Part shown: in pieces, positions 11,355-21,159 of the stretch
How the letters are laid out: every line of letters begins with the position of its first letter
How positions within the stretch are numbered: the first letter of the stretch is position 1
Source: Gammaproteobacteria bacterium
GTDB taxonomy: Bacteria > Pseudomonadota > Gammaproteobacteria > SURF-13
NCBI GenBank assembly: GCA_016195665.1
Contig: JACPZD010000012.1
Location: 1 to 43,661, forward strand
Reading direction: 5' to 3'
DNA length: 43,661 bases
Notes under the pieces: generated by a model
Databases searched by the model: none
The model's input: only the letters and a program-made list of their open reading frames with translations
Told to the model about the DNA's origin: nothing
Translations under genes and position numbers: made by a program

Positions 11355-12518
11355 GTGACGATGACAAAATGGTTCGGTCTCATGCTCGTGCTGAGCATTA
11401 CCAGTGTTGCCGCAGCGCCTGTCGAACTCAATCCCAAACACCCCGACAGTTACACCGTGGTCAAAGGCGACACGCTGTGGGACATCGCGGGACGTTTTCT
11501 CGCCAAGCCCTGGCGCTGGCCGGAGATCTGGAAGGCCAATCCCGGCATCAAGAACCCCCATTTGATCTATCCCGGCGATGTCGTCGTGCTCACTTACCAG
11601 GACGGCGCGCCGCGACTCGGCCTACAACGCGGCTCGCTCCGCGGCAGCACCGTAAAGCTTTCGCCGCGCACCCGCGTCACCGCTCTGGAACGCCCTATTC
11701 CCACCATCCCCTATGAGGCCATCGCCCCGTTTCTGACCAAGCCGCGAGTCGTCACGCAGGAGGAGATGGGGGCCGCCCCCTACGTCGTCGCCAGCGCCGG
11801 CGAACACCTGGCCAGCGGCACGGGAGATCGCGTCTATGTACGCGGGTTGAAGGAAAATCCTGACGTACAGGGACGTACTAATGTCGCGGGAGGCAGGATG
11901 CCGGGAGCGACGGCTGGCCGCTATCATATCCTGCGCCTCGGCCAGCCCTACCGCAAGCCGCCCCCCGTGAAGCTGGAAGAAGAACCGCCGATTATGGACC
12001 CGACCCAGGTCCATAAAGAGGAACAGCCCAAAAAAGAGGACGAGATCCTCGGTTACGAGGCCCTTTACGTCGGCGAGGCCACAGTAGAGAAGTGGGGTGA
12101 TCCGGTCACTACGCTGAGCCTGGTGCGCGCCGAGCGCGAGACCGTCATCGGCGACCGCTTGCTGCCCATCACGGGCGAGCGCTACGAACAAAACTTTTTC
12201 CCCCACCCCCCCAAAAACACCGTCGAGGGCAACATCATCTCAATCTTTGAGGGTGTTAGAAGCCTCGGCCGCTACCAGGTCGTCGCGCTCGATCTCGGCG
12301 CCGAACAAGGCATGGAACAGGGCACCGTGCTCGCCGTCTATCAACGCGGACAGGCCGTGCGCGACATCGTGAGCCCGCCGTCGGATGACACCGTTCAATT
12401 ACCCGACGAACAGGCCGGCGTCCTCATCGTGTTCCGCACCTACGACCGGATCAGCTACGCCCTGGTGATGGAGGCGACCGGGCCGCTGCGGCTCAATGAC
12501 GTGGTGAGAAATCCCTGA
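11355..12518 (+). CDS. tsaP: LysM peptidoglycan-binding protein, TsaP-like (type IV pilus secretin-associated)
   Basis: This is a 387-residue exported protein. The signal peptide ([19 protein letters not shown]) precedes a LysM domain at about 33-80 ([17 protein letters not shown], then [21 protein letters not shown]). A long C-terminal region with repeated short beta motifs follows ([33 protein letters not shown]). A LysM gene divergent from def-fmt and upstream of dprA matches Pseudomonas tsaP, whose product anchors the PilQ secretin to peptidoglycan. The start is GTG 11355 after AAGGGGG; ATG 11361 is an alternative. Residues 169-185 ([17 protein letters not shown]) come from a 48-bp repeat inserted in frame in a segment that normally reads on to a GxYxIxRxGxPY stretch. 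Confidence 0.8.
11862..11909 (+). repeat. 48-bp coding-sequence element, copy A (in tsaP)
   Basis: It begins GACGTACAGGGACGTAC (a small palindrome) and continues to GTCGCGGGAGGCAGGATGCC and GGGAGCG. It is the same length as copies B (13340-13387) and C (20847-20894, opposite strand). By eye it matches C at about 44 of 48 positions and B at about 41. It reads in frame as [16 protein letters not shown]. Confidence 0.9.
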
Positions 12519-12525
12519 GGGGCTA

Positions 12526-12604
12526 GTGAGGGGCAAAAACAGTGAGGGGTGAGGAGTGAGGCGTAAAACCGATTTCCCCTCACGCCTCACCCCTCACGCC
12601 TCAC
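12526..12604. repeat. GTGAGGGG inverted repeat between tsaP and dprA
   Basis: The left side carries GTGAGGGGTGAGGAGTGAGG (12542-12561) and the right side CCCCTCACGCCTCACCCC (12576-12593) followed by TCACGCCTCAC. Together they can form a long imperfect hairpin. It ends exactly at the dprA start region, where the missing N-terminal part of DprA would be expected. Confidence 0.8.
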
Positions 12605-13618
12605 TTGTCGGTTACGCCCTTTGCCGTTATGAAAAGCCCAGCCGCCGCCGAACACGAGATCGCCTGGCTGGCGGAGCCCAACCATCACCTTATCACCCTC
12701 TCTGACCCACGCTATCCCCCACTGCTGCGCGAGATCGCCGACCCGCCCGCCGTGCTTTACGTGATTGGCGACCCTGATCTCCTGTCGGCTACCCAACTGG
12801 GCATCGTCGGCAGCCGCAACCCGACGCCGGGCGGCAGCGAGACCGCGCATGCCTTTGCCAGCTACCTCACCCAGTCGGGGCTGACCATCACCAGCGGGCT
12901 TGCATTGGGCGTAGACGCCGCCGCGCATCGCGGGGCGCTGGCGGCAGGGGGTAAGACGATCGCCGTCGCCGGGACGGGGCTCGATCGCGTCTACCCGGCG
13001 CGGCACCGCGAACTCGCCCATGAGATCGCCGGACAGGGGGCGCTGATCTCGGAATTTCCGCTCGGCACACCCGCCCTGCCTTCAAATTTCCCGCGCCGCA
13101 ACCGCATCATCAGCGGCCTCAGTCTGGGTGTGCTGGTCGTCGAAGCGGCACTGCAAAGCGGTTCGCTCATCACCGCGCGGCTCGCCGCCGAGCAGGGCCG
13201 TGAGGTATTCGCCATCCCCGGCTCCATCCATAACCCCCTGGCGCGCGGCTGCCATGCACTGATCCGGCAGGGGGCCAAGCTCGTCGAAACGGCGGCCGAC
13301 ATACTGGAAGAGCTGGGTCCTATAGCCCGGGTCACCGCTGCCGTACAGGGAAGCACTAACGTCGCGGGAGGCAAGACGCCGGAAGCGACCCCGGCGCACC
13401 AAACTGACGGCGCAGGGAACATAGCGACCGGGCTGGGTGTCGAAGCTACGACACTGCTCGACTGCCTGGGTTTTGACCCAACCCCTGTGGACAGTCTGAT
13501 TGAACGCAGTGGATTGACGCCGGAGGCGGTTTCCTCCATGCTTCTGGTACTGGAATTGCAAGGCCATGTGGTATCGGCGCCCGGCGGACACTATACCCGC
13601 GTGACTAAGAGGGTTTGA
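12605..13618 (+). CDS. dprA: DNA processing protein DprA (Smf), lacking the N-terminal helical domain
   Basis: DprA binds single-stranded DNA and loads RecA during natural transformation. The Rossmann core is complete: GIVGSRNPTPGGSETA, then TSGLALGVDAAAH, then NFPRRNRIISGLS, SGSLITARLAAEQGREVFAIPG. The C-terminal winged helix is present (TPVDSLIERSGLTPEAVSSM). The protein starts directly at AEHEIAWLAEPNHHLITLSD. About 60 residues of the N-terminal SAM-like domain seen in E. coli Smf are missing. An in-frame stop at 12557 and an inverted repeat lie immediately upstream. The start is TTG 12605 or ATG 12629, both with poor ribosome-binding sites. Residues 246-261 (AVQGSTNVAGGKTPEA) are copy B of the 48-bp element, in the core to winged-helix linker. 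Activity is uncertain. Confidence 0.88.
   Translation: MSVTPFAVMKSPAAAEHEIAWLAEPNHHLITLSDPRYPPLLREIADPPAVLYVIGDPDLLSATQLGIVGSRNPTPGGSETAHAFASYLTQSGLTITSGLALGVDAAAHRGALAAGGKTIAVAGTGLDRVYPARHRELAHEIAGQGALISEFPLGTPALPSNFPRRNRIISGLSLGVLVVEAALQSGSLITARLAAEQGREVFAIPGSIHNPLARGCHALIRQGAKLVETAADILEELGPIARVTAAVQGSTNVAGGKTPEATPAHQTDGAGNIATGLGVEATTLLDCLGFDPTPVDSLIERSGLTPEAVSSMLLVLELQGHVVSAPGGHYTRVTKRV
13340..13387 (+). repeat. 48-bp coding-sequence element, copy B (in dprA)
   Basis: It runs GCCGTACAGGGAAGCAC to GTCGCGGGAGGCAAGACGCC and ends GGAAGCG. It is in the same orientation and the same reading frame as copy A in tsaP (QGSTNVAGGKTPEAT versus [15 protein letters not shown]). It lies in a flexible interdomain linker. 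Confidence 0.9.
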
Positions 13619-18726: not shown

Positions 18727-21159
18727 ATGAACGACCCAACAGTATTGGTCAATCTCGACGAGATCGAACGCTATGAACAAGCGGTGGGTGCCTTTTTAGG
18801 CAAAGAGCTGGACGCCGACCGCTTCATGGCCACGCGCCTGCAACAGGGCGTCTATGGCCAGCGCCAGGACGGCGTGCACATGATCCGCGTCAAGGTGCCG
18901 GGCGGTAAGATGCTACCGCATCAACTGGTGGCCATCGCCGAGGTGCTGGAGCAGTACGTCCAGCACGACGTGGTGCACGTCACCACGCGCCAGGATTTTC
19001 AGATTCACTACGTGCCCACCGCCGACACGCCTGCGGCGCTGCGCCACTTGGCCGCGTCCGGGCTCACCACGCGCGAGGCGTGCGGCAACACGGTGCGCAA
19101 CGTCACCGCCTGCCCGCTGGCCGGCGTGTGCCCGCGCGAACATTTGGACGTCATACCGGTGATGGACGGCGCAGTGGCGCACTTTCTACGTCACCCGCTC
19201 ACCCAACATCTGCCGCGCAAGTTCAAGATCAGCTTCTCCGGCTGCGAGCACGACTGCGCGCAGGGCATGATGCACGACCTCGGTGTGGTGGCCGTACAAA
19301 AAGACGGACGTTACGGCTTTAAGGTGCTGGCGGGCGGCGGCCTGGGCCACAAGCCGCACGAGGCGATTACCGTCGAGGAGTTCATCGAGGAACAGGATTT
19401 ACTGCCCTGCATGGAGGCCATCGTGTCGTTGCACCACCGCTATTCGGATCGCGTCAAGCGCGCCAAGGCGCGCATCAAATTCCTGGTGGACCGCTTCGGC
19501 CCGGAGGGCTTCCGGGAAAAATACCGCGAGGAATACGCGCGCACCAAGGCGGCGTTCGAGGGCAAGGTTTACCCCAAGGGCGAGTGGACGGGTGTGGTAG
19601 AGCCGGGCCCGGCCTGCGGCATGGGCGCGCCGCGTGGGGTGTTGGCGCAGAAACAGCGCGGCCTGAACGTGTTCCCCATCAGCCTCAAGATCGGCGACAT
19701 CAACGCGGCGCAACTGCGCGGCATCGCCAAGATTATGCAAGATGAAGACTTGAACGACATCCGCACCACGCAGGATCAGAACCTGATGATTATGAGTGTG
19801 CCGGGCGCGCGTATCGAGCCGATACGCAAGGCGCTTGCGCCTTTGGGTCTGGCCGAGCCCAAAGCCGGCGACGACGTGGTCGCCTGCCCCGGTACCTCCA
19901 CCTGCCGCTTGGGGATAACCTCCAGCAAAGTCATCGGCGCCAAGCTTTCCGGCGGCGAGGCCGATCTACGCATCCGCGCCAGCGGCTGTCACAACGGCTG
20001 CGCGCAGCCGGAGACCGGCGACATCGGCATCTACGGTGAAGGCAACCGTCTGCACGGCAAGCTGGTGCCGCACTATCAGATGTATTTCGGCGGCGACGGC
20101 CGTGCGGGAGGCGGCTTGGGCTTCAAGAGCGTGTCGGTGCCCGCCTTGCGCGTGGAGCAGGCCATCGCGCGCGTGCAAGAAACCTTTTCAAAGGATCGCG
20201 TCAACGGCGAGACGTTTTTTCAGTGGACACGCCGGCGCGGCAAGGAATCCTTCAAGGAACTGCTCGCCGATCTCACCGTGGTCAACCCGGAAGATGTCCC
20301 CGTGCTGTTGAGCGATCACGGCGAGGCGGGGGCCTTCAAGGTGCTGCAACTGGGTGGCGGCGAGTGCGCGGGCGCGGCGCAGGAGCTGGTCTCGGCGCGC
20401 TTTTCAGAAGCCGCCTACGAACGCAGTTGCCGCAACGCCTTCATCTATCAGCACAAGCTGCTTGATGCCACCGAGTGCGCCGAGGCCATGGCGCGACTGG
20501 TTGGCCAGTCGCTGCTGTTTGTCACCGGCCAAAAATCGCTCGATGATCTCAGCGAGATCGCCCAGGCCGCGCGCACTGAATTACAGGCATTACGCCCGGA
20601 ATACGCGCCCCTCGCGAATACGCTCGGCGAATTCGCGCACGCGCTGCACGCCCTTAAAGAGAGTCAGGACGAGGCGCGCTTTAACACGCTGATGGCCGAT
20701 CTCGACGCGTGGATGATCCAGTCCGCGCGCGCCTGCGAAAGCTTCGATCCGCAGCTCGACCTCTCCGCCACGCTGCCGCCGGTCAATACGCCGGTATACG
20801 TCGCGCCTGCGCACGGGCGGGCGGCGAAATCCAAGCTCAATGGGGCCGCTTCCGGCATCCTGCCTCCCGCGACACTAGTACATCCGTGTACGTCGGAAGC
20901 CGCAGCTACGCCGGGCGCAACGGTGAGCACGGTAGACTTGTCTACCTATGCCTGTCCGGTACATTTCATGAGGGCGCGCATCGAGCTTGGCAAACTATCC
21001 GCAGGCGGAGTCATCGAATTTCTGCTGGAGTCCGGCGACGCCACGCAGCAGGTCTCGGAAAGCCTGGAGAAGGAAGGGCATGCGATACTCGCCTCGACCA
21101 GCGAGGGGGCATTGACCCGCGTGCGGGTACAAAAGGCCACCGCCGTCGCCCATGCCTAA
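18727..21159 (+). CDS. Siroheme [4Fe-4S] sulfite (nitrite) reductase fused to a TusA-like domain
   Basis: This is an 810-residue multidomain protein. Residues 1-545 form a complete siroheme reductase with two ferredoxin-like half domains and the cluster/siroheme motif C387-x5-C393 (CPGTSTC) plus C421-x3-C425 (CHNGC). It should reduce sulfite to sulfide with six electrons. No cysJ flavoprotein is nearby, so a ferredoxin donor is likely. Residues 550-700 are helical and unrecognised. Residues 735-810 are TusA/SirA-like (TYACPVHFMRARIELGKLS, with C743 at the sulfur-carrier position). The linker holds copy C of the 48-bp element, read antisense to copies A and B. AAGGAG precedes the start. The fusion suggests the product sulfide or persulfide may be passed to a carrier. 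Confidence 0.88.
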   Translation: MNDPTVLVNLDEIERYEQAVGAFLGKELDADRFMATRLQQGVYGQRQDGVHMIRVKVPGGKMLPHQLVAIAEVLEQYVQHDVVHVTTRQDFQIHYVPTADTPAALRHLAASGLTTREACGNTVRNVTACPLAGVCPREHLDVIPVMDGAVAHFLRHPLTQHLPRKFKISFSGCEHDCAQGMMHDLGVVAVQKDGRYGFKVLAGGGLGHKPHEAITVEEFIEEQDLLPCMEAIVSLHHRYSDRVKRAKARIKFLVDRFGPEGFREKYREEYARTKAAFEGKVYPKGEWTGVVEPGPACGMGAPRGVLAQKQRGLNVFPISLKIGDINAAQLRGIAKIMQDEDLNDIRTTQDQNLMIMSVPGARIEPIRKALAPLGLAEPKAGDDVVACPGTSTCRLGITSSKVIGAKLSGGEADLRIRASGCHNGCAQPETGDIGIYGEGNRLHGKLVPHYQMYFGGDGRAGGGLGFKSVSVPALRVEQAIARVQETFSKDRVNGETFFQWTRRRGKESFKELLADLTVVNPEDVPVLLSDHGEAGAFKVLQLGGGECAGAAQELVSARFSEAAYERSCRNAFIYQHKLLDATECAEAMARLVGQSLLFVTGQKSLDDLSEIAQAARTELQALRPEYAPLANTLGEFAHALHALKESQDEARFNTLMADLDAWMIQSARACESFDPQLDLSATLPPVNTPVYVAPAHGRAAKSKLNGAASGILPPATLVHPCTSEAAATPGATVSTVDLSTYACPVHFMRARIELGKLSAGGVIEFLLESGDATQQVSESLEKEGHAILASTSEGALTRVRVQKATAVAHA
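20847..20894 (-). repeat. 48-bp coding-sequence element, copy C (in the sulfite reductase gene, opposite strand)
   Basis: Read on the minus strand it is GACGTACACGGATGTAC, then GTCGCGGGAGGCAGGATGCC and GGAAGCG. It is bounded on the plus strand by GCTTCC (20848-20853) and GGAAGC (20895-20900). It is translated on the plus strand as [16 protein letters not shown], in the linker before the TusA-like domain. Confidence 0.88.

Follow-up and report, generated by a model that had tools for sequence, protein, structure and literature searches.

A 51-bp two-hairpin repeat that probably spreads as a non-autonomous mobile element in Gammaproteobacteria, mostly within genes

The window analyzed here is the whole of a 43,661-nucleotide stretch (contig JACPZD010000012.1, positions 1 to 43,661) of assembly GCA_016195665.1, from a bacterium of the gammaproteobacterial lineage SURF-13. 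It contains three copies of a short repeat, each located within a protein-coding gene: a tsaP-like gene, dprA and a sulfite-reductase-like gene that encodes NIR_SIR and TusA domains (Table 1). The original prediction described three 48-bp copies of 16 codons each, the first two read in one frame and the third antisense. The copies lie close to where they had been placed, and the frames were read correctly (the two plus-strand copies are sense in frame 1, the third is antisense in frame 0), whereas the unit measures 51 bp, or 17 codons, and its exact bounds differ. Two arrangements establish this length: head-to-tail copies adjoin with a spacing of exactly 51 bp, in the source genome and in others, and nested copies add up to 102 bp (51 + 51). 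Copy 1 is identical to a common family form, and its second hairpin contains a 4x4 internal loop (GGGA/GGGA) and the loop AGGAT (CsrB-type CAGGAUG). Copy 2 is more diverged, with AAGAC in loop 2, and has the DNA_processg_A domain of DprA on one side and the winged helix on the other, while copy 3 is positioned between the reductase and TusA domains of its host. The element pattern gave no match in 100 shuffles of the window. The interval between tsaP and dprA (12526-12610) holds a distinct inverted repeat of the GTGAGG(C/G)GTGAGG type; an Rfam search returned only chance microRNA-type matches, nearly all of them on this unrelated repeat.

Table 1. Element copies and hairpins in the window, and loci of the variant forms.
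Feature	Location	Strand	Description
Element copy 1	11861-11911	+	51 bp; in-frame in tsaP-like LysM-domain gene (ORF 11355-12518), +17 residues
Hairpin 1 of copy 1	11865-11878	+	stem GTAC/GTAC, hexaloop AGGGAC (ANGGAN, CsrA/RsmE-type)
Hairpin 2 of copy 1	11883-11911	+	outer stem GTCGC/GCGAC, inner stem GGC/GCC
Element copy 2	13339-13389	+	51 bp; in-frame in dprA; adds VQGSTNVAGGKTPEAT
Element copy 3	20845-20895	-	51 bp; antisense to host ORF 18727-21159, +17 residues
69-bp subfamily	L107, L111, L114, L123, L126, L127, L134, L143, L150, L152, L154, L166		
Inverted nested composites, first class	G000:C2:4515, C11:8620, C28:90935, C37:99394, C37:108014		
Inverted nested composites, second class	C5:12500, C5:19621, C11:53356, C39:7401		

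The repeat was modeled as two separate hairpins, in a scheme drawn after inspection of the copies. In unit numbering, hairpin 1 pairs positions 5-8 with 15-18, and hairpin 2 pairs positions 23-27 with 47-51 and 32-34 with 40-42. Two-sided changes occur at 6 of the 13 pairs among 52 distinct copies from one set, and at 8 of 13 in a set drawn mostly from other genomes; because the alignment of the latter was fitted to the model, it is the 52-copy set that serves as the independent test of covariation. The covariation was lost when the pairing partners were slid, and its score was matched by none of 500 shuffles. Base 1 additionally pairs with base 21 in the 52 copies without exception (C-G in 27, T-A in 25). 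Every copy folds into two covarying hairpins, and in other genera the stems change while the loops are kept.

The source genome (2.38 Mb in 41 contigs, 99.4% complete) contains at least 104 matches to the 3' half of the element, 55 forward and 49 reverse, as compared to none for a reversed control pattern. A profile search of the stretches around these copies recovered about 100 near-full copies, of which 84 are 51 bp long and 13 belong to a 69-bp subfamily, in which hairpin 1 is enlarged, being replaced by a longer segment containing AGAGCGACAGCGAAGGGTTCT, and this length, too, is divisible by three. Four near-full copies measure 50 or 52 bp, and all four are among the copies outside intact ORFs. 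A further copy (L063:1239-1316, present also in L233) has a 27-bp insertion in hairpin 2, for a total of 78 bp, also a multiple of three. At several loci a copy is nested in opposite orientation within another, at one or the other of two positions next to the hairpin 2 internal loop. Such composites gain exactly 51 bp (or 69) over the host copy with no extra duplicated bases, and it is on these nested copies that target duplication was judged, the linkers of orthologous proteins being too diverged to place an insertion site to the base. The first class of nested inserts has a TGCC start in common, an indication that the composites are propagated as 102-120 bp units. The flanking bases point to a weak target preference: positions -4, -3 and -1 upstream are enriched in C, in C or T and in G or C, respectively, and 70 of 84 copies are followed directly by C.

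Comparison of four host proteins with their orthologs separates insertion from ancestry. The additional residues are cleanly absent from all 15 TsaP orthologs and from all seven orthologs of the sulfite reductase-TusA protein, two of which are close relatives from the same family. They are likewise absent from 21 of 21 DprA orthologs, in a linker that varies in length, and from 21 of 21 orthologs of enolase, which is encoded elsewhere in the source genome and carries a 17-residue insert; five of these enolases come from the same family. The 17-residue blocks are insertions rather than ancestral sequence, because the orthologs of all four proteins lack them. In the five same-family genomes, the element insertions in these four genes (enolase, DprA, TsaP and sulfite reductase) are not common with the source genome.

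Most copies reside in genes. A strict test, in which codon usage was modeled from the retrieved stretches, placed the copy in an intact ORF with an identical coding frame before and after it in 58 of 101 cases, and a simple gene caller placed 74 of 104 within genes, so that the two tests put the in-frame share in intact genes at about 57-71%. Sense frame +1 is used 33 times, sense +2 nine times, antisense 0 14 times and antisense 1 twice; these are exactly the four open frames, the two remaining ones holding stops. Genic copies are more often sense than antisense (49 versus 25, p = 0.007), and the intergenic copies that lie between co-directed genes favor neither strand (10 sense versus 7 antisense). 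Many of the host genes are usually essential or central, the Pfam-confirmed hosts including enolase, valyl-tRNA synthetase (two copies), DnaG, UvrA, PriA, RecG, MnmE, TrpE, phosphofructokinase, SucC, phosphoglycerate mutase, QueC, FtsQ and PcnB (two copies), together with a CheA-like kinase that holds four copies, a UvrD-like protein with two, a PD-(D/E)XK helicase-nuclease with three and a CsoS2-containing protein with five. Two adjoining helicase-nuclease genes (L115, G000:C5:7300-14100), one UvrD-like (1195 aa) and the other PD-(D/E)XK (1037 aa), contain several copies each, some of them nested. On the minus strand of another contig (L122:2732-6136, G000:C11), a CbbX-like AAA domain and a mid-region of the carboxysome scaffold CsoS2 lie in one uninterrupted ORF of 1135 aa, in which five or six peptides of element origin serve as linkers; the arrangement may be a true fusion or an artifact of assembly. 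The placement in linkers between domains that had been proposed applies to many copies, whereas at least a dozen fall within Pfam domain envelopes (QueC, SucC, iPGM, ManC and PFK), where they presumably sit in surface loops; in QueC, SucC and iPGM, the Pfam match exceeds the model length by approximately the length of the insert. The original prediction of an in-frame inserted repeat resembling the Rickettsia palindromic elements (RPEs) is borne out by the ortholog comparison, in which no distant ortholog sharing the residues was found, by the genome-wide search and by the tally of frames, but it had overlooked the true length, the genome- and class-wide scale, the hairpins with loops resembling CsrA sites, and the existence of 69-bp and composite forms.

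The family extends well beyond the source lineage. It was found (E 0.001 or better) in at least 57 of 273 good-quality gammaproteobacterial genomes drawn across the class, and because about 21 candidates were scored per genome in this survey, its per-genome copy counts are lower bounds. All five same-family genomes examined carry the repeat, as do the cultured Thiohalophilus thiocyanatoxydans (loci L073 and L084) and metagenome-assembled genomes of Muproteobacteria and Chromatiales, and host genes in other genera encode ValRS, MurD, UvrD, MnmG and PelB. Searches of plasmids and E. coli genomes gave no convincing match, viral contigs gave no exact match, and phages gave a single partial match (28 nt), to a faecal phage record lacking annotation, and otherwise nothing convincing. 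A full-text literature search for the element sequence found none, and the literature on CsrA sites in mobile repeats and on protein-coding palindromes yielded no description of the family.

The loops of both hairpins resemble binding sites of the RNA-binding regulator CsrA. The CsrA SELEX consensus is RUACARGGAUGU, most selected ligands having a hexaloop between AC and GU and at most 4 base pairs; RsmE complexes contain an ANGGAN loop, and CsrB repeats read CAGGA(U/A/C)G (PMC7652899). Hairpin 1 of the element has the form GTAC-ANGGAN-GTAC and hairpin 2 the form GGC-AGGA(T/C/A)-GCC. Judged as GGA in a hairpin loop, either in ANGGAN with C-G closure or in CAGGA(U/A/C)G, the motif is present in loop 1 (as ANGGAN) of 102 and in loop 2 (as AGGA(T/C/A)) of 106 of the 112 distinct copies; the match has moderate weight because it was noticed after the fact. 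The source genome encodes one CsrA, which scores above the Pfam cut-off, has the usual N-terminal MLILTRR and VHREE motifs and is strongly conserved. The CsrA of E. coli K-12 looks almost identical. The Rfam CsrB model (RF00018) has no match in the source or same-family genomes, and a CsrB sRNA was rejected on this account as the origin of the element. From these comparisons, we tentatively propose that the hairpins (C-ANGGAN-G and C-AGGAH-G) could be CsrA/RsmA-binding sites, with the sense RNA binding a CsrA dimer. The importance of such binding would lie chiefly in the spread of the element or in a small number of transcripts, and not in each gene that harbors a copy. Slightly more doubtful is the fuller scenario, in which the transcript of a mobile element would act as a minimal two-site CsrA ligand, the element would spread by, or be tolerated through, CsrA binding, and landing in-frame would both lengthen proteins and join their transcripts to the CsrA network.

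Three other explanations were considered. That the peptides are ancestral low-complexity linkers or chance similarities would fit their glycine- or proline-rich composition, which is that of natural linkers, but we consider this exceedingly improbable: near-identical DNA is read in four frames, on both strands and in unrelated proteins, its base pairs covary, and the ortholog alignments already contradict it. The repeats might instead be a domesticated CsrA operator or sponge, kept by the host so that each RNA binds a CsrA dimer through its two hairpins, thereby controlling many mRNAs or titrating CsrA. The agreement of loops and closing pairs with the SELEX consensus, the ANGGAN hexaloop and the CsrB repeat (PMC7652899) speaks for this, as do the conserved CsrA in a family lacking a CsrB match and the sense excess of genic copies. 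So does the pattern of variation: free variation among the roughly 25 unpaired positions is confined to 10, 14 and 39, which coincide exactly with the variable bases in the two CsrA motifs, and loop 2 occurs in other genera both as AGGAN and as ANGGAN. However, loop retention in genic copies does not differ with orientation (1.1% of loop GGA bases changed in antisense copies versus 0.9% in sense), evidence against the view that each copy has a regulatory role. The absence of orientation bias among intergenic copies means that the sense excess may only reflect tolerated peptides, frame +1 being suited to them, and the insertions in the four tested genes are not common to relatives. A domesticated function is accordingly unlikely in our judgment. 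G-U pairs (19) show no clear excess over A-C mismatches (16), a comparison that is not decisive between RNA and DNA pairing. Together with the equal retention and the lack of intergenic bias, it suggests that loop conservation may reflect recent copying from active elements, and it is possible that the hairpins are conserved for a reader at the DNA level, such as a transposase.

A new GTAG- or CGTC-like REP family mobilized by a RAYT (a Y1 tyrosine transposase) would account for a short palindromic unit that forms composites without detectable target duplication; intragenic REP copies are known (PMC3733652), and the source genome has nine Y1_Tnp genes. Against it, the element has no terminal GTAG tag, its stems are 3-5 bp as compared to 8-9 bp in CGTC REPs, and its copies are mostly intragenic. 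Nor do its copies accompany these transposases: in 50 Y1 loci, a subset of the Y1 genes across genomes, no strong copy was found at a border and the nearest lay more than 1 kb away, two overlapping loci showing a weak partial match, and the copy-rich genome G219 has no Y1 match at all. A flanking Y1 transposase was rejected as the partner of the element in the loci scanned, and a REP/RAYT origin appears to us about as unlikely as domestication.

The explanation that we consider probable is that the repeat constitutes a family of very short, non-autonomous mobile elements (51 bp, with a 69-bp subfamily and composites of 102 and 120 bp) that spread through gammaproteobacterial chromosomes and are commoner in genes than between them. 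Its survival inside genes would depend on three properties, namely a length that is a multiple of three, four open frames out of six, and two open frames, one sense and one antisense, that would give small, flexible or proline-rich 17-residue peptides. We infer that an enzyme acting in trans, or another mobilizing enzyme, copies the element without detectable target duplication, probably via a folded single strand; the search for a gene encoding the mobilizer found none.

An in-gene way of life familiar from Rickettsiales here occurs in about a fifth of the sampled gammaproteobacterial genomes, with the majority of copies inside genes, including glycolytic, replication and tRNA-synthetase genes. 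The copies provide a natural insertional scan of the sites at which proteins accept 17 extra residues, and blocks of 17-24 element-derived residues should not be taken for homology in annotation. If the CsrA reading is true, a mobile element carries sites for a global RNA-binding regulator; this putative link is specific and cheap to test.

Several known systems share features with the element. ERIC, NEMIS and RUP, which are MITEs, are likewise non-autonomous repeats able to form in-frame fusions, but the element is much shorter, shows no target duplication detectable at its nested copies and lacks terminal inverted repeats, its start (TGACGTAC) differing from the reverse complement of its end (GTCGCTCC). 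GTAG and CGTC REPs are short palindromes found in single, paired and clustered copies, some intragenic, and CGTC REPs are defined by a terminal CGTC, a stem of 8-9 bp and a loop of 4-5 nt (PMC3733652). In contrast, the element ends in YGAC and GCGAC with no unpaired terminal GTAG, has a 4-bp stem with a 6-nt loop, is mostly intragenic and has no RAYT at its borders in the scanned loci; it fails the tested marks of classical MITEs and of both REP types. With CsrA/RsmA-binding hairpins it shares the C-ANGGAN-G hexaloop on a 4-bp stem and the CAGGA(U/A/C)G loop (PMC7652899), but it appears as a two-hairpin, mobile-type repeat inside mRNAs, in contrast to an sRNA gene or a leader. It is from Rickettsiales that palindromic elements within protein-coding sequence are best known. 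RPEs (RPE-1 and others, with Wolbachia equivalents) are short palindromes inserted in-frame in many conserved genes, tolerated in the protein and also found between genes (PMC2229807, PMC10969869). The element resembles them in its in-frame insertion into intact protein genes (58-74 of about 104 copies) whose orthologs lack the inserts. It differs in that RPEs are about 100-150 bp long, form one long stem-loop and occur in Rickettsiales, whereas the element is 51 or 69 bp long, forms two short separate hairpins, belongs to Gammaproteobacteria and has most of its copies in genes; its sequence is probably distinct as well. While placed in no described family, it is best viewed as a variant of the protein-coding palindromic repeats, RPE-like in manner.
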